64,000 nt of DNA from Roseiflexus sp. RS-1 (GTDB lineage Bacteria; Chloroflexota; Chloroflexia; Chloroflexales; Roseiflexaceae), in NCBI RefSeq assembly GCF_000016665.1, contig NC_009523.1, forward strand, positions 5,021,501 through 5,085,500. Reading direction: 5' to 3'. The notes below the pieces were generated by a model, which worked only from the letters and a program-made list of their open reading frames with translations, did not search any database and was not told where the DNA came from. A program made the translations under genes and the position numbers. Of the stretch, positions 30,842 to 62,946 are shown in pieces. Numbering within the stretch: position 1 is the stretch's first letter; each line of letters starts with the position of its first letter.

Positions 30842-31083
30842 GGCTAATGGAGATTGAGAAATAAATCCGCTATATCGCGCTAGCCGTCGGGCTAATGGAG
30901 ATTGAGAAATAAATCCGCTATCCCGCGCTAGCCGTGGGGCTGAAGCCCTCGGCTAGCCAGGGCGAAGCCCGCCTGCGCGGGCTATACCGGAATAATTATT
31001 CAAAGACCATCAGCCCTCGGCTATGGAATGCGAAGCCCGCCTGCGCGGGCTATAGCGGAGTAATTACTCAAAGACCATTAGCC
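30842..31083. mobile_element. Two nested MITE-like palindromic elements
   Basis: Imperfect terminal inverted repeats begin GGCTAATGGagaTTGAgaAAT at 30842 and 30890. They are matched on the other side by GGCTgATGGTCTTTGAATAAT ending near 31015 and GGCTAATGGTCTTTGAGTAAT ending at 31083 (read on the minus strand). The core holds the palindromes CTAGCCGTGGGGCTGAAGCC and AAGCCCGCCTGCGCGGGCT. The arrangement left-left-right-right suggests one copy inserted beside or into another. A third copy lies at 42637-42761. No coding capacity. Confidence 0.85.
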
Positions 31084-42445: not shown

Positions 42446-43104
42446 GGCGGCAGCGGGTGAGAGAACCGGAAACGTAGAACAATATATTACGTTGACCATC
42501 GTCCAGGTCCGCCGTGTTGCGCGAGGCGCCCGCTTCCGGCAGAGCGTAGACCGAAATTCATTTCGGTCACCGTGTGGGGAGCGCGATTCCAGGAAAGTTC
42601 AACCTCGTCCACGGGGTTGAACCTCTGTGAGAACTGCTTAATGGAGATTGAGAATTTATTCCGCTATCCCGCGCTAGCCGTGGGGCTGAAGCCCTCGGCT
42701 ATCTAAGGCAAAGCCCGCCTGCGCGGGCTATATCGGATTATTTATTCAAAGACCATAAGCCCTGGCTGAGGTCGGGTAGGTCCTGCGGGCTGGATCAACC
42801 CGGCGCCCCCCGGCATAGGGAAAGGTGGCAGGTACGCCAGCCCCGCAAGGGCTTCCTATGCGCTCAGGGAGGGTTTGAGCCCGCACGAGCGGAGTCGCGC
42901 GCCTGACGAAGGACGATGGCGGATGGCTTCTCTCCAACCGCCACGCAAGGCAGTCGCCGCACGGGGAGCGTGAGCGTGACTGTGTTTGTTCGAGGAGGTT
43001 CAATCTCTATGAGAACTGCTATAATTCTTCAAACTCATCAACGTGAACATATCAGACTGCTGAGCTCGCAACGATGCGCTGCCATCTGATCGTCGAGCAG
43101 ACGC
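42446..43104. other. Non-coding region with flanking direct repeats
   Basis: This 659-bp stretch has no supported gene. Two 23-bp direct repeats (42616-42638 and 42998-43020, GAGAACTGCT ends, 20 of 23 identical) bracket it. The MITE-like element lies immediately after the first repeat. The rest is G+C-rich sequence without a domain; a short minus-strand frame at 42746-43003 is not convincing. Confidence 0.6.
42637..42761. mobile_element. MITE-like element, third copy
   Basis: The left end TAATGGAGATTGAGAATTTA, the palindromic core GCTAGCCGTGGGGCTGAAGC and AAGCCCGCCTGCGCGGGCT, and the right end CAAAGACCATAAGCC match the elements at 30842-31083. It is a 125-bp single copy, the simplest version of this family in the window, and contains no coding sequence. 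Confidence 0.85.
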
Positions 43105-52355: not shown

Positions 52356-52384
52356 TTGACAACCCGTATAATCGGCGCTATGAT
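52356..52384 (+). promoter_or_regulatory. Consensus promoter of the arg operon
   Basis: TTGACA (52356-52361), a spacer of exactly 17 bases, and TATGAT (52379-52384). The predicted transcription start near 52391 lies only a few bases before the leader-peptide ATG at 52395, so the leader is essentially leaderless. Confidence 0.9.
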
Positions 52385-52394
52385 TACCCTCGCT

Positions 52395-52469
52395 ATGAAT
52401 CAGATGCCTGACAGTCTGCGCACATTGCGTCGCTTCCGTCGTCCGGGATGCACCGGTCTGGAGGGTTAG
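52395..52469 (+). CDS. Arginine-rich leader peptide
   Basis: A 24-residue peptide of a ribosome-mediated attenuator. Its codons 9, 12, 13, 15 and 16 are Arg (CGC, CGT, CGC, CGT, CGT), giving LRTLRRFRRP. It ends at TAG 52467-52469, directly after the segment 52455-52466 that pairs with the terminator arm. When arginine is plentiful the ribosome reaches this stop and covers that segment, so the terminator forms. When arginyl-tRNA is scarce it stalls at the Arg codons and leaves the segment free. Alternatively translation begins at the second ATG (52404), leaving the same Arg codons. It has no function other than sensing. Confidence 0.85.
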   Translation: MNQMPDSLRTLRRFRRPGCTGLEG

Positions 52470-52535
52470 CCGCGCGTGCGCAGCACACGAATGCATCGGG
52501 CAAACAGCGTCAGCGTGATGATACACCCTTCGGAC
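52455..52535 (+). promoter_or_regulatory. Antiterminator pairing of the arg attenuator
   Basis: GTCTGGAGGGT (52456-52466) pairs with ACCCTTCGGAC (52525-52535) over 11 bp, with two G-U pairs. The second strand is the 5' arm of the terminator, so the two structures exclude each other. The first strand overlaps the last codons of the leader peptide and is masked by a ribosome at the stop codon. Confidence 0.8.
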
Positions 52536-52564
52536 ACACAAACCAGTCCGAAGGGCTTTTCTTT
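52526..52564 (+). terminator. Intrinsic terminator of the arg leader
   Basis: CCCTTCGGAC (52526-52535) pairs perfectly with GTCCGAAGGG (52546-52555) and is followed by CTTTTCTTT (52556-52564). It stands just before the GGAGGG ribosome-binding site of argC, so it attenuates the arg operon before its first gene. Confidence 0.95.
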
Positions 52565-52573
52565 GGAGGGTGC

Positions 52574-53587
52574 ATGATTCGCGTCGGTGTTTTTGGCGCC
52601 ACCGGGTATGCCGGTTACGAATTGCTGCGATGGCTGCGACGCCATCCAGAAGCGCGCGTGGTGTTCACAGCGTCCGAGTCGTCAGCCGGGGCGTCGCTCG
52701 CCGATGTTGTGCCGGGTCCGCTCGACGCGCCATTGATTGCACCCGATGAAGCGCCGCTGGCGGATGTCGATCTGGTTTTCCTTGCGCTACCGCATGGCGC
52801 TGCCGGGAAGATGGCGCGACGCGCACGCGCCGCCGGGGTGCGGGTCATCGATTTCTCCGCCGACTTTCGCCTGACGACGCCTGAAGCGTACCGGCGCTGG
52901 TATGGGCATGAACACCCGGCGCCTGAGTTGCTGCCAGCGCCTTATGGTCTGCCGGAACTCAATCGCGCCGCTCTGCGCAACGCGCCGCTAATCGCCAATC
53001 CTGGCTGCTATCCGACCGGTGTGCTGCTCGGTATCGCGCCGCTGCTGATGATGGGCGCGTTGACCGATCCGCTGATCATCGTCGATGCCAAGTCAGGGGT
53101 GTCGGGAGCGGGCCGCGCGCCGAAACAGAATACGCACTTCGTCGAGGTGAACGAAAACCTTGCGCCGTACAACATCGGTCAGGTTCACCGACACGTCGGC
53201 GAAATGATGCAGGAAGCACAGCGCATCGCCTGCGGCATAACGCCGGAGATTGTCTTCACGCCACAACTTCTGCCAGTGAGTCGCGGCATTCTGAGCACAA
53301 TCTACCTGCGCATACCGGACGACTGGAGCGAAGATCGGGTGCGGGCGCTGTACTGCGAACAGTACGCTGACGAGCCATTCGTGCGGGTGCTGCCGACGGG
53401 CGCGCTGGCAACCCTGGCGCACACGACACATACCAACGTCTGCGCCATCTCACTGACCCTGGCGCGACCCGGGTTGCTCATCGTGGTCTCCAGCGAGGAT
53501 AATATGGTCAAAGGCGCAGCCGGGCAGGCGATCCAGAACATGAACCTGATGTTCGATCTGGAGGAGACGACCGGGCTGATGGGTTGA
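52574..53587 (+). CDS. argC: N-acetyl-gamma-glutamyl-phosphate reductase
   Basis: A 337-residue enzyme that reduces N-acetylglutamyl phosphate to the semialdehyde with NADPH in arginine synthesis. The nucleotide-binding fold opens VGVFGATGYAGYELLRWL, the catalytic cysteine is in NPGCYPTGVLLG (about residue 147), and a C-terminal histidine lies in QVHRHVGEM. GGAGGG (52565-52570) precedes the ATG at 52574; an earlier in-frame GTG belongs to the leader region. It is the first gene after the attenuator. Its TGA stop is provided by a GTTGAAC heptamer, and argB follows after an array. Confidence 0.96.
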   Translation: MIRVGVFGATGYAGYELLRWLRRHPEARVVFTASESSAGASLADVVPGPLDAPLIAPDEAPLADVDLVFLALPHGAAGKMARRARAAGVRVIDFSADFRLTTPEAYRRWYGHEHPAPELLPAPYGLPELNRAALRNAPLIANPGCYPTGVLLGIAPLLMMGALTDPLIIVDAKSGVSGAGRAPKQNTHFVEVNENLAPYNIGQVHRHVGEMMQEAQRIACGITPEIVFTPQLLPVSRGILSTIYLRIPDDWSEDRVRALYCEQYADEPFVRVLPTGALATLAHTTHTNVCAISLTLARPGLLIVVSSEDNMVKGAAGQAIQNMNLMFDLEETTGLMG

Positions 53588-53689: not shown

Positions 53690-53708
53690 GATACAGGGGA
53701 GAGAGGAG

Positions 53709-54494
53709 ATGACAGACCCGGCACACCACGATGATCGACCGACACTGGTCATCAAAGTTGGCGGCAATGATCTCGACGACGCCACATTCGTTGCGGAACT
53801 GGCGCGTGTCGTGGCAGCGATTCGCCCACTTCCCGTCCTGGTGCATGGCGGCGGCAAGGAGATCGGAATCCTGCAAGAGACGCTGGGCAGCACACCACGC
53901 TTCGTTGGCGGGTTGCGTTACACCGATGCCACTGCGCTCACAGCGGCCGAGATGGTTCTATGCGGTAGTGTGAGCACGCGCCTGGTGGCGGCGCTCATTG
54001 CTGCTGGCGCTGATGCGCTCGGCATCTCCGGCGTGGATCGCGGACTGATCCGGGTCGTGAAACAGGAGCATCCGGCAGGCGATCTGGGGCGCGTCGGGCG
54101 CCCAACCGCAGTGCGTGGCGAGGTGCTGCGCGACTTGCTTGACCACGGCGTTATACCGGTGATTGCACCCATTGCGCTCGGACCCGATGGACCGTACAAC
54201 GTTAATGCCGACGAAGCGGCCGGCGCCGTTGCAGCAGCACTTGGCGTCAGCGAGGCAGTATTCGTCACCAATGTGCCTGGCGTGCTGGTCAAAGGCGATG
54301 TCATGCGCTATTTGACGCGCAGCGAGATCGAACGGTTAATCGCTGATGGCACGATCAGCGGCGGCATGATCCCCAAAGTGCGCGCTGCTCTCACCGCACT
54401 CGACGCTGGCGTACATGCCGCGCGAATCACCAATCTGGAGGGATTGCTGAACCAGGGAACAACGATCATCACGGAAAGGGAACCACACGAATGA
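53709..54494 (+). CDS. argB: Acetylglutamate kinase
   Basis: A 261-residue amino-acid kinase that phosphorylates N-acetylglutamate. LVIKVGGNDLDD (residues 12-23), VHGGGKEIG, VGGLRYTDATAL (substrate loop), IAPIALGPDGPYNVNADEAA and the lysine-containing ISGGMIPKVRAA all match. It lacks the long N-terminal helix of arginine-inhibited hexameric enzymes, so feedback by arginine may be weak (inference). AGAGGAG precedes the ATG at 53709. Its stop overlaps the argA-like start as ATGA. Confidence 0.95.
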   Translation: MTDPAHHDDRPTLVIKVGGNDLDDATFVAELARVVAAIRPLPVLVHGGGKEIGILQETLGSTPRFVGGLRYTDATALTAAEMVLCGSVSTRLVAALIAAGADALGISGVDRGLIRVVKQEHPAGDLGRVGRPTAVRGEVLRDLLDHGVIPVIAPIALGPDGPYNVNADEAAGAVAAALGVSEAVFVTNVPGVLVKGDVMRYLTRSEIERLIADGTISGGMIPKVRAALTALDAGVHAARITNLEGLLNQGTTIITEREPHE

Positions 54495-55006
54495 CCGTCC
54501 ACGTCCGCGAGTCACAGGTTTTTGTCGTACCGCCGCGCACACCCGAAATCATTGTGCGTTGCGCCGAAGAGGACGACGTTGCTGCTATCGTCGCTATTGT
54601 CGCCGAACATGCCCGCCAGGGGCACCTGCTGCCGCGGAGCGCCGATAATATCCGCGCCACCCTCTCGTCGTGGCTGGTTGCAGAGGTGGATGGCGCCGTG
54701 GCGGGCATCGGCTCGCTGGTGCAGATGAGTCCAACACTGGTCGAGGTGCGTTCGCTGGCGGTTCTGCCGCAGTATCGCGGGTTGCGCATCGGACAGACCA
54801 TCGTGCGCGGGCTGGTCGATGAGGCGCGTCGGCGCGGATTTCCGAAAGTGTTCGCATTGACGCGCGCGGTTCCGTTCTTTGAAAAATTGGGCTTCCGGAT
54901 CACATCGAAGGATGATTTCCCGGAAAAGGTCTGGCGCGACTGTGCAATCTGCCCGCTCCAGCATGCCTGTGACGAGACGGCGGTGGTGATAGAGGTTGAA
55001 TGTTGA
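54491..55006 (+). CDS. ArgA-like N-acetyltransferase of arginine synthesis
   Basis: A 171-residue single-domain GNAT protein. [20 protein letters not shown] (about residue 90) is the acetyl-CoA loop, [17 protein letters not shown] (about 120) is motif B, and the tail [13 protein letters not shown] (about 155) carries three cysteines, characteristic of the short ArgA-type L-glutamate (or glutamine) N-acetyltransferases rather than the long ArgA. This fits its position between argB and carA; it would supply acetylglutamate beside the ArgJ cycle. The stop TGA lies in a GTTGAAC heptamer (three heptamers at 54995-55015). Confidence 0.8.
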
Positions 55007-55041: not shown

Positions 55042-56202
55042 ATGACGACACGGACGCGCGCACTGCTGGCGCTGGAAGATGGCACGATCTGGCATGGATA
55101 TGCGCTGGGCGCGATTGGCGAACGGGCTGGTGAAGTGGTGTTCAACACCTCGATGACCGGCTATCAGGAAGTGTTGACCGATCCGTCATACTATGGTCAG
55201 ATCGTGGTGATGACCGCGCCGCATATTGGCAACACTGGGGTCAACCGGGAAGACGAGGAGAGCCGTCACCCGTGGGTTGCCGGGTTCGTTGTGCGCGCTG
55301 CCAGTCCATACGTCTCCAACTGGCGCGCCGCGCAGTCGCTCCACGAGTATCTGGCGGATCATGGCATCGTGGCAATGACCGGCGTCGATACGCGGGCGCT
55401 GGTGCGGCATATCCGCACCCAGGGCGCAATGCGCGCGGTCATCTCGTCCCAAGACCCGGAACCGGATCGCCTGATCGCAGCAGCGCGCGCTGCGCCGTCG
55501 ATGAACGGTCTCGACCTGGTGCCGTATGTCACCTGCGCCGAACCGTACCACTGGGTCGAGGGCAATCCGGGAGAGTGGGGTAGGGGCGAAACACCGGCGC
55601 AACGTGGCGAGCCGACGTTCCACGTCGTCGCCTACGACTTCGGCATCAAGCGCAACATTCTGCGCCTGCTGGCGGAACATGGGTGTCGCGTCACCGTTGT
55701 GCCAGCCACCACGCCCGCTGCTGACGTGCTGGCGCTCGAACCGGACGGCGTTTTTCTCTCGAATGGACCAGGCGACCCGGCAGCGGTGACGTATGGCGTG
55801 CAGGCTGTGCGCGACCTGCTGGGCAAAACACCGGTGTTCGGCATCTGTCTCGGTCATCAGATCCTCGGTCTGGCGCTTGGCGGCACAACCTATAAACTGC
55901 ACTTCGGTCACCGGGGCGGCAACCAGCCGGTGCGCTTCAGCGATACCATGCGGGTGGAAATTTCGAGCCACAACCACGGCTTCGCCGTCGATGCGTCATC
56001 GTTGCCCGATGGTGTTGAAATCACCCATGTCAACCTGAACGATGGATGTGTCGAAGGATTGCGTGCGCCGGACAAACAGGCTTTCAGCGTACAGTACCAC
56101 CCTGAGGCGGCGCCGGGACCGCACGACGCGCGGTACCTGTTTCGCCAGTTTGTCGAACTGATGGCGCAGGCGCGGAACCGTCATCAGGCATCGAGCGGTT
56201 GA
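55042..56202 (+). CDS. carA: Carbamoyl-phosphate synthase small subunit
   Basis: A 386-residue glutaminase subunit. The N-terminal CPSase small domain (residues 1-150; [20 protein letters not shown]) is followed by a class I amidotransferase domain with the catalytic cysteine in [18 protein letters not shown] (about residue 272) and the His-Glu pair in [14 protein letters not shown] (about 355). It releases ammonia from glutamine for CarB. GAGG lies seven bases before the ATG at 55042. It sits within the arg operon, so the carbamoyl phosphate made here probably feeds arginine synthesis. Confidence 0.96.
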
Positions 56203-56244: not shown

Positions 56245-56703
56245 ATGTCACTCTATCAGCGCCTGCGTCCCCTGTACCACCGATCACCGCAAGAGCGTAT
56301 TCAGGTGATGCAGGCGGAACTTGCTGCACCGCTCGATGCCACACGTCGCGCCCTTGACCGATTGCTGCAACTGGACGCGGAACAGACAGCACCATTGATG
56401 CGGGGACGATACGATGAACTGCTCGACGTGCTGCGTGATTCGATGGCACGCCTCGAAACGCTCGTCGCTGAAGGAAGCGCACGCGCAGACGGCAGCATAA
56501 GCGACCGCGACCTGCACGTGTATCGACACGATCTGCTGACCCCGCTCGGCAATGTGCGTGGTGTCGCCCGCCTGCTGGTCCGTATCAATTCACCTGACCT
56601 GCCGCCCGGTTTCACGCAGGTGACCCGTGATCTGGACGATGCCTCCCGCGACGTGCTCGATGTCATCGATGCGCTGACGGCATCACAGGAGCGAACAGAA
56701 TAA
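56245..56703 (+). CDS. Orphan histidine-kinase DHp-like protein
   Basis: A 152-residue helical protein between carA and car[20 protein letters not shown] (about residue 90) looks like the H-box of a HisKA dimerisation domain, with a possible phosphorylatable histidine, but no ATP-binding domain follows. The N-terminal 70 residues are helical. GAGGA precedes the ATG. It may accept or buffer phosphate from a kinase elsewhere, or act as a dimerisation adaptor. I do not know a named family for it. Confidence 0.65.
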
Positions 56704-56774: not shown

Positions 56775-60112
<3,338 letters not shown>

Positions 60113-60116
<4 letters not shown>

Positions 60117-61336
60117 GCGCAAAAGTCAACAAAGTCGTTCTGGCATACTCCGGCGGTCTCGACACCAGCATCATCGTTCCATGGCTGAAGCAGAACTACG
60201 GCAATCCCGAAGTCATCTGCTACTGCGCCAATATCGGTCAGGACGATGAATTGAGCGGTCTGGAGGAGAAAGCCATCGCCACCGGCGCCTCGAAGTGCTA
60301 CGTCGAAGACCTGCGCGAAGAGTTTGTGCGCGATTTTCTCTTCCCGCTGCTCCAATCTGGCGCCGTGTACGAGCGCACCTATCTGCTCGGCACATCGGTA
60401 GCGCGCCCACTGATCGCCCGTCGCCAGGCGGAAATCGCGCTCCAGGAAGGCGCCGACGCCCTCGCGCACGGCTGCACCGGCAAAGGAAATGATCAGGTGC
60501 GCTTCGAATTGACCTACATGGCATTCGCGCCGCACCTGAAAGTGATCGCCCCCTGGCGCGAGTGGAATATCCGTAGCCGCGAGGACGCGCTCGACTACGC
60601 CGCCGAACATAACGTTCCGGTCACCGCCACGCTCAAATCGATCTACAGCCGTGACCGCAACATCTGGCATATGTCGCACGAGGGTGGCATCCTGGAGGAC
60701 CCGTGGAACGAACCGGAAGAAGCGATGTACACCCTGACGACGGACCCCGAAGCAGCGCCAGACGAACCGGAGTATGTTGTGATCGGGTTCGAGCAGGGAA
60801 CGCCGGTGAGCGTCAACGGTAAGCGCCTGGGACCGGTCGAACTGCTGCTGACCCTGAACGACATCGGCGCAAAGCATGGCATCGGACGCGTCGATCTGGT
60901 GGAAAACCGGCTGGTCGGCATGAAAAGCCATGGCGTCTATGAAACTCCTGGCGGGACGATTCTGCGAGTGGCGCACCAGGGGCTTGAGCAACTGACGCTC
61001 GACCGTGATACGCTGCACTACAAAGACGTGATCGCCCATCGCTACGCCGAACTGGTTTACTATGGGCAGTGGTACACACCGCTGCGCGAGGCGCTCGATG
61101 CATTTGTGCGCGTCACCCAGCGTAACGTCACCGGCGAGGCGCGCCTGAAACTGTATAAGGGGAATGCAACCCTGGTCGGGCGGCGCGCAGCGAAGAGCCT
61201 CTACAACCCCGACATCGCCAGTTTCACGATGAGTGACAGTTATAACCAGAAGGACGCCGAAGGGTTCATCAAGATTTTTGGGCTGCCGGTGAAGGTGCAG
61301 GCGCTGCTGGAGGGGCGGTCAAGGGGTGAACGTTGA
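60113..61336 (+). CDS. argG: Argininosuccinate synthase
   Basis: A 407-residue enzyme that joins citrulline and aspartate with ATP. The N-type ATP pyrophosphatase P-loop is [18 protein letters not shown] (about residue 8); citrulline and aspartate contacts lie in [16 protein letters not shown] (about 120); the conserved end is [19 protein letters not shown]. The ATG overlaps the carB stop. The final codons (AGG-GGT-GAA-CGT-TGA) read into the heptamer array, which supplies the stop and may have replaced the original C-terminal tail. Confidence 0.97.
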
Positions 61337-61715: not shown

Positions 61716-61722
61716 ACAGCAT

Positions 61723-62946
61723 ATGCAGACAGACACATTCTCACTTGCGCGTGGTTTTACTGCCACTGCAACCGCCTGCGGACTGAAACCGAACGGTGCG
61801 CTTGATATGGCGCTGATCACCGCCGATGTTCCATGCAGCGCCGCCGGTCTCTTCACGACCAACCGCGTCAAGGCAGCGCCGGTGATCTACGACCAGGAGA
61901 TTCTGGCGACGAATGCCAGCGCCATTCGCGCCGTGATCGTCAATGCGGGGAATGCCAACGCCTGCACCGGACCGCAGGGCGCTGCGAGCTGTCGCGCGAT
62001 GGCGGAACTGACCGCCGAACGGCTCGGGTGCCGCGCCGATCAGGTACTGGTGCTCTCAACCGGCGTCATCGGTCGGCAACTCGACATGACAAAAGTGGCG
62101 CAGGGCATTGCCAGTCTGACCGGACCGACTGCTCATTCGGGCGCCGGCGCCGCCGCGCGCGCTATGATGACCACCGACACACACCCAAAAGTCGCTTCAC
62201 GCACCATCACCGTTGCCGAACGCACGGTCACGATTGCCGGGATGTGCAAAGGCGCCGGCATGATTCATCCCAACATGGCGACGATGCTGGCGATTGTGAC
62301 CACCGATGCGCACGCGCATCCTGCACAACTCGACCGCGCCCTGCGCATTGCCGCCAATCGCAGTTTCAACCGTGTCAGCGTTGATGGCGACACCAGCACC
62401 AACGATACCCTGCTCCTCCTGGCGTCTGGTGCGTCTGGCGTCCCCGTGAGCGACACTCCGCTCACGGATGGGCTTGCATTCGACGACTTCACTGCAACGC
62501 TCACGGATGTGTGCATCGACCTGGCGAAACAGATTGCGCGCGATGGCGAAGGCGCCACACGCCTGGTCGAAATCACGGTCAGCGGCGCGCAGGACGAGCA
62601 ACAGGCGCACCAGGTGGCAAATGCCATCGCGCGATCCCCGCTGGTCAAAACCGCGATCCACGGCGGCGACCCGAATTGGGGACGGATCCTGTGCGCCGCC
62701 GGGTACAGCGGCGCTGCCATCGACCCCGACCGCCTGGCACTCTGGTTTGGTCCGCCAGAAGCGTCGATCCAGCTTGTGGCGCATGGGTTGCCGCTCGACG
62801 CCGACCTGGCGGCAGCATCGGCGCTGCTGCGCCAGGACCCGGTCTTCATTACGCTCGACCTGGGGCTGGGCGACGCACGAACCACTGTCTGGACGTGCGA
62901 TTTCAGCAAAGAGTACGTCGAAATTAATGCCCACTATACAACGTAG
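61723..62946 (+). CDS. argJ: Bifunctional ornithine acetyltransferase / acetylglutamate synthase
   Basis: A 407-residue ArgJ. It self-cleaves before a threonine in KGAGMIHPNMATMLAIVTTD (about residue 180), producing alpha and beta chains; the N-terminal FSLARGFTATATACGLKPNG and NAGNANACTGPQG blocks and the C-terminal ILCAAGYSGAAIDP segment match the family. It recycles the acetyl group from acetylornithine to glutamate. The ATG at 61723 has no Shine-Dalgarno site and directly follows the repeat array. The membrane protein gene overlaps its 3' end by 20 bp. Confidence 0.95.
   Translation: MQTDTFSLARGFTATATACGLKPNGALDMALITADVPCSAAGLFTTNRVKAAPVIYDQEILATNASAIRAVIVNAGNANACTGPQGAASCRAMAELTAERLGCRADQVLVLSTGVIGRQLDMTKVAQGIASLTGPTAHSGAGAAARAMMTTDTHPKVASRTITVAERTVTIAGMCKGAGMIHPNMATMLAIVTTDAHAHPAQLDRALRIAANRSFNRVSVDGDTSTNDTLLLLASGASGVPVSDTPLTDGLAFDDFTATLTDVCIDLAKQIARDGEGATRLVEITVSGAQDEQQAHQVANAIARSPLVKTAIHGGDPNWGRILCAAGYSGAAIDPDRLALWFGPPEASIQLVAHGLPLDADLAAASALLRQDPVFITLDLGLGDARTTVWTCDFSKEYVEINAHYTT

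Follow-up and report, generated by a model that had tools for sequence, protein, structure and literature searches.

The argC leader and the arginine gene cluster

The window, by which we mean the whole analysed stretch of 64,000 nucleotides, comes from the genome of Roseiflexus sp. RS-1 (5,801,598 bp in a single contig), whose nearest named relatives are Roseiflexus MAGs with ArgC identities of 92-95%. It holds a cluster of arginine genes in the order argC-argB-GNAT-carA-152-aa ORF-carB-argG-argJ-like ORF, all on the + strand (Table 1). The GNAT gene is a probable argA-type N-acetylglutamate synthase. An earlier note on this DNA had described a promoter, an Arg-rich leader, an 11-bp antiterminator, a 10-bp terminator, a U-tract and a ribosome-binding site in front of argC, and all of these are present where the note had placed them.

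Table 1. Positions in the window of the argC leader elements and of the genes that follow them
Feature	Position	Strand	Description	Support
Promoter	52356..52384	+	sigma-70-type, TTGACA - 17 nt - TATGAT; -35 box 52356-52361, -10 box 52379-52384	11/12 consensus matches
Leader ORF	52395-52466; stop TAG 52467-52469	+	24 codons, MNQMPDSLRTLRRFRRPGCTGLEG	5 Arg codons
1:2 hairpin	52432..52466	+	strand 1 (about 52432-52446, within the Arg codons) with strand 2	fold, RNAalifold consensus
Strand 2	52456..52466	+	antiterminator 5' arm, GUCUGGAGGGU; abuts the leader stop codon	pairing, covariation
Strand 3	52525..52535	+	partner of strand 2 (antiterminator) or, from 52526, of strand 4 (terminator)	
Intrinsic terminator (predicted)	52526..52564	+	10-bp stem (52526-52535 : 52546-52555), 10-nt loop, U-rich tail 52557-52564	
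argC	52574..53587	+	N-acetyl-gamma-glutamyl-phosphate reductase; first gene under the proposed control; ATG at 52574 preceded by GGAGG	TIGR01850 370.7 bits (cut-off 233.6)
argB	53701..54494 (start codon approximate)	+	acetylglutamate kinase	TIGR00761 194.3 bits (cut-off 151.3)
GNAT gene	54491..55006	+	GNAT N-acetyltransferase	top match NF005840, slightly below its cut-off; PF00583
carA	55042..56202	+		TIGR01368
152-aa ORF	56245-56703	+	between carA and carB	weak HisKA-like match only
carB	56775..60116	+		NF003671 / TIGR01369
argG	60113..61336	+	argininosuccinate synthase; 4-nt overlap with carB	genome position 5081631 = window 60131
argJ-like ORF	61720..62946 (start approximate)	+	which we take to be argJ-like; presumably the last arg gene	sequence and general knowledge

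Arginine codons occupy positions 9, 12, 13, 15 and 16 of the leader ORF. An in-frame ATG further upstream, at 52380, would give 29 codons but falls on the -10 box, and for this reason 52395 is the likely start. Its AUG lies 10 nt past the -10 box, with a predicted 5' UTR of ~3-4 nt. All 11 positions of the antiterminator are paired, two of them as G-U, and all 10 pairs of the terminator stem are Watson-Crick; the stem is followed by CTTTTCTTT. In the predicted fold the antiterminator strand is sequestered by the 1:2 hairpin, which an outer stem extends to about 52414-52484. We infer from all this the transcription start, the translation of the leader, the termination and the dependence on charged tRNA-Arg.

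Taken by itself, the argC locus is only modestly unlikely. Neither promoter-like matches (2 in the region against 3.0 in shuffles) nor terminator-like matches (8 against 8.4) are in excess, the fold of the whole leader has z = -1.9, and 10 of 500 shuffles match the antiterminator duplex. The case therefore rests on comparison among relatives, and this comparative evidence raises the attenuator far above chance.

Distribution of the element among relatives

The DNA upstream of argC was compared in relatives from four families of the order. In all 31 readable leaders from Roseiflexaceae (f1) and the Herpetosiphon-like part of f3, argC is preceded by an Arg-rich ORF, an intrinsic terminator and a strand-2 candidate; that relatives should keep the short Arg-rich ORF was what the earlier note expected. 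The same 31 leaders all carry TTGACA-17 nt-TAnnnT before the ORF and have their AUG 7, 9 or 10 nt past the -10 box. In the wider phylum, the same design is seen before argC, in the form of candidates, in 16 Anaerolineae-type genomes, two of which are weak (L057, without a clear promoter, and L142). Here the AUG is mostly 6-11 nt past the -10 box, with a few leaders outside that range. A distance of 6-11 nt, as most leaders have it, predicts a nearly leaderless mRNA whose UTR would not exceed a few nucleotides. In one Anaerolineae-type leader, MKNFTTRFVRRIRRRQTNGLVFSVV, GGUCUGG pairs with CCAGACC, and this core is identical to that of Roseiflexus. The automatic call of strand 2 is weak or misplaced in L009, L012, L013, L014, L060 and L142.

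Before argC of families f2 (where argC lies behind a GNAT gene) and f4 the element was not found. Upstream of argG, an Arg-rich ORF with a terminator behind it does occur in three f2 genomes (L173-L175) and in three f4 genera (g12, g17 and g21; L239, L245, L249, L251-L253), which are cases where argG heads its operon. The f4 argG leaders were read by eye, and L239 and L245 show the downstream part of the element only. In the g16 (Chloroflexus-type) genomes examined, the attenuator is absent at both argC and argG. L138 and L144, from the wider phylum, have no leader before argC, and none was found in the Dehalococcoidia-like genomes (L153-L172), where several start codons are poorly placed. In the genome of the window, argF, argH and argD have no such leader. 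At argF of another genome, G006 (L209), an Arg-rich ORF, MAHISDKNLRATTGAMPQLRRFFRRM, lies ~200 nt upstream and is followed by a strong terminator, a sequence arrangement which suggests that G006 may carry a second arginine attenuator there.

Family f1 has 15 members outside g8, and in 14 of them a covariance model of the Roseiflexus-type element detects a single copy per genome, which sits at argC wherever coordinates were comparable. In other families the model detects hardly any, and relatives there were traced from gene position instead. Matches to an Arg-rich ORF with a terminator in proteobacterial loci were discarded, as most of them look like rpsI read at its 3' end (...RRRKQFSKR), with the terminator of that gene behind it; three others lie in Lamprocystis-type genomes (L066-L068).

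The g16 genomes have something else upstream of argC: a conserved and strongly structured RNA of ~130 nt (L045:60-320; also L039, L040, L042-L044 and L048), which in the RNAalifold consensus forms a multi-helix junction with few double changes. After it, just before argC, comes a conserved 28-aa ORF, MFTRILNFLRRLGQIHPAVIAIAPDRTW. Neither the RNA nor the ORF has an Rfam or Pfam match. With at most one mismatch, the core pattern of the RNA is present in seven genomes and at no site other than argC; a further two matches, each with two mismatches, are located elsewhere. Since these genomes are without the Arg attenuator, the structured RNA may be a different control element.

Conservation of the leader ORF and covariation of the helices

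Several features suggest that the leader ORF is translated. Arg pairs in the arrangement RR..RRP are kept across genera, and the N-terminus of the leader varies freely. In the alignment, all indels inside the ORF are multiples of three; past the stop codon this is not so. Arginine is the most enriched residue of the leaders (22% against 8% in the proteins of the operon; the two remaining frames give 12% and 7%). As the ORFs were selected partly by their Arg density, the comparison of frames and the constancy between species outweigh the raw p-value.

Two further observations concern the leader and its start. Among the leader Arg codons of 29 representatives CGU accounts for 73 of 168, and the arg genes of the window use CGC for 114 of 206 and CGU for 20. 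The pattern TTGACA-N16/17-TAnnnT-N6/10-ATG occurs 22 times in the genome of the window (L256-L277), and its reversed form 0 times. Long ORFs begin at several of the 22 sites, which suggests that near-leaderless mRNAs may occur in this genome. One tRNA-gene-like site aside, the argC leader is the only one of the 22 where a short ORF is joined to a terminator.

The pairings are maintained across genera as well. Terminator 5' arms pair with their own leaders at a mean of -20.0 kcal/mol and with those of other species at -15.9 (28 representatives; z about -7), and in 20,000 permutations no sum was as good as the observed one. In alignment A1, 93.5% of the cells of the terminator are paired, with 23 double changes against 6.6 in shuffles; for the antiterminator the values are 87.4% and 8 against 3.2, A-U to G-C among its compensatory changes. 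These double changes are not independent events, since the rows of A1 are related. Sliding the register produces a sharp drop for both helices. Compensatory changes in both stems had been anticipated in the earlier note, and its reading of the leader as a ribosome-mediated attenuator draws support from conservation, covariation and alternative folds alike.

Between the last Arg codon of the cluster and strand 2 there are commonly 12-16 nt. This is about the stretch that the leading half of a ribosome covers ahead of the A site. The earlier note had also stressed that the stop codon directly follows strand 2. For Roseiflexus and its close relatives this is correct; elsewhere strand 2 lies further upstream, and in the g8 and Herpetosiphon-like leaders about 12-18 nt separate its end from the stop, so that a terminating ribosome would leave part of it uncovered. 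Because strand 2 is well upstream of the stop in several lineages, the 1:2 hairpin would have to take part in these. In g8 leaders this hairpin is predicted and shows double changes at several pairs. For g8 and the Herpetosiphon-like leaders, re-formation of the 1:2 hairpin behind the ribosome would be a likelier step than masking of strand 2.

Proposed mechanism and its alternatives

The two ribosome positions were compared by folding, for the Roseiflexus leader, only the RNA outside the ribosome, with a footprint taken from general knowledge. When the RNA is free from 52455, as with a ribosome on the Arg codons, the antiterminator folds (-37.9 kcal/mol). When it is free from 52482, as with a ribosome on the stop codon, the terminator folds. 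That the two states differ in this way agrees with what the earlier note proposed. In the absence of a ribosome, the 1:2 hairpin together with the terminator reaches -69.5 kcal/mol, against -52.8 with the antiterminator enforced.

We consider it highly probable that the argC leader is a ribosome-mediated transcription attenuator, with charged tRNA-Arg as its signal and the arginine cluster headed by argC under its control. It might act as follows. Transcription would start just upstream of the leader AUG, and a ribosome would trail the RNA polymerase closely. If tRNA-Arg is poorly charged, the ribosome would stall in the Arg cluster, with its A site no further than codon 16 (52440-52442) and its front edge ending about at the start of strand 2. 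The stall would leave strand 2 to pair with strand 3. Such pairing would block the terminator, and the polymerase would consequently enter argC and the genes beyond it. If arginine is plentiful, the ribosome would reach the stop codon and cover strand 2; the terminator could then form, and transcription would end near 52564. Without any translation of the leader, strand 2 would be held in the 1:2 hairpin, and termination is expected again.

Other explanations can be suggested for such a leader. In fungi, the arginine attenuator peptide halts the ribosome that makes it when free arginine is high. Were the Roseiflexus peptide to do the same from within the exit tunnel, the RNA folds would only report the stall; the peptide is indeed Arg-rich, and a ribosome terminating at the Roseiflexus stop codon would be in a position to matter. 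Residues other than Arg are poorly conserved, however, and the Arg pattern itself shifts between leaders (LRRFRRP, RRADRRRVR, LRLRRPR, RRIRRR, RDRRRR), both of which fit recognition by the tunnel badly, and the position of the stop codon relative to strand 2 varies. We regard arginine sensing by the nascent peptide as very improbable. There might also be no sensing of arginine at all, if the terminator is constitutive and simply lowers argC expression, or if the ORF serves translation coupling. The chance frequency of terminator-like sites in the region would fit this, and the arginine dependence of an attenuator is something that we infer. Yet a constitutive terminator would not account for three-way pairing kept across genera, for Arg codons that stay in frame, or for an element which precedes whichever gene heads the arg operon, and we give this explanation just as small a chance.

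Strong alternative folds exist without translation, and the same helices might for this reason belong to a riboswitch that binds a ligand or a protein, with the ORF being incidental. No Rfam family matches the leader, though, alignment A1 is without a conserved unpaired core, and the frame-preserving indels and the Arg enrichment indicate translation, which makes a riboswitch the least probable of these suggestions.

In bacteria, repressors of the ArgR type are generally held responsible for the control of arginine synthesis, and an arginine attenuator in Chloroflexota was called unusual in the earlier note on that premise. For Chloroflexia the premise holds: ArgR (PF01316) was found in none of 82 Chloroflexales genomes and in none of 158 Chloroflexia genomes over the cut-off, in a search where 9 of 14 control genomes were positive. 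No T-box or other cis-regulatory RNA of Rfam was matched in the window. The only Rfam matches there are CRISPR direct repeats (CRISPR-DR28), at 30961-31052 and 42707-42730.

With some hesitation, we incline to extend the attenuator from argC of Roseiflexus to a proposal for the phylum. An almost leaderless arginine attenuator may be ancestral in Chloroflexota, where it would replace ArgR. It would descend from the common ancestor of Chloroflexia and Anaerolineae, as the shared GGUCUGG / CCAGACC core suggests, and would stand before the gene that heads the operon, be it argC or argG. It would also exist in two geometries, one with strand 2 masked at the stop codon and the other with 1:2 re-pairing behind the terminating ribosome.

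If correct, a widespread Arg-codon attenuator in bacteria without detectable ArgR would explain how they control arginine synthesis. The leaders would further constitute a natural series with one logic and varied geometry, suited to tests of ribosome position, leaderless initiation and RNA folding in termination. The attenuator would also be a practical marker for annotating missed leader ORFs upstream of arg operons.

Comparison with known systems

Attenuation is known from textbooks for many amino acid operons. Arginine as a signal of classic attenuation is apparently undescribed: the open full-text literature yielded no description of attenuation at an arg operon, and priority is provisional because most subscription papers, notably the survey by Lopatovskaya et al. 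2010, lay outside the scope of the search. A survey of premature terminators (PMC2965389) is silent on arginine and on Chloroflexi. For Actinobacteria, a survey of attenuators names elements of trp, leuS, ilvB, cys and leuA, with no arginine case in the passages covered (PMC1262725). RegPrecise 3.0 counts, for Chloroflexi, 17 RNA regulogs; it also has 4 families of amino-acid attenuators, which go unnamed in the passages covered. Control by ArgR or AhrC also subjects the same genes to their end product, but does so through a DNA-binding protein, undetected in the Chloroflexia genomes searched.

The fungal arginine attenuator peptide (the arg-2/CPA1 uORF) would share with the Roseiflexus leader an arginine-responsive control of arginine (carbamoyl phosphate) synthesis by a leader peptide. 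It differs in that a conserved nascent peptide senses arginine, at the level of translation, in eukaryotes and with no terminator. Arg codons serve as sensors in two bacterial leaders. In the orf34-speF leader of Salmonella, two consecutive Arg codons of the leader ORF sense the arginine supply by ribosome pausing, but what is controlled is polyamine synthesis, via Rho and RNase G, with no intrinsic terminator and no arginine biosynthesis operon (PMC6386406). In the rbfL leader of Staphylococcus aureus, Arg codons of a leader peptide sense arginine limitation, but the outcome is of the opposite sign and at the level of translation, as the RBS of a biofilm regulator is blocked (PMC13009471). 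A precedent for so short a predicted 5' UTR is the ilvBNC attenuator of Corynebacterium glutamicum, which has three hairpins and a leader start codon 1 nt from the transcription start (PMC11857589). It senses branched-chain amino acids and belongs to another phylum, and the transcription start in Roseiflexus is a predicted one.

The classic attenuators of Proteobacteria and Actinobacteria (trp, his, thr, leu, ilv, phe) have much in common with the Roseiflexus element: a leader peptide rich in the end product, mutually exclusive antiterminator and terminator, a 1:2 hairpin and a U-tract before the first biosynthetic gene. What sets the Roseiflexus element apart from them is arginine as its proposed signal, its Chloroflexota host and a predicted 5' UTR that is almost absent.
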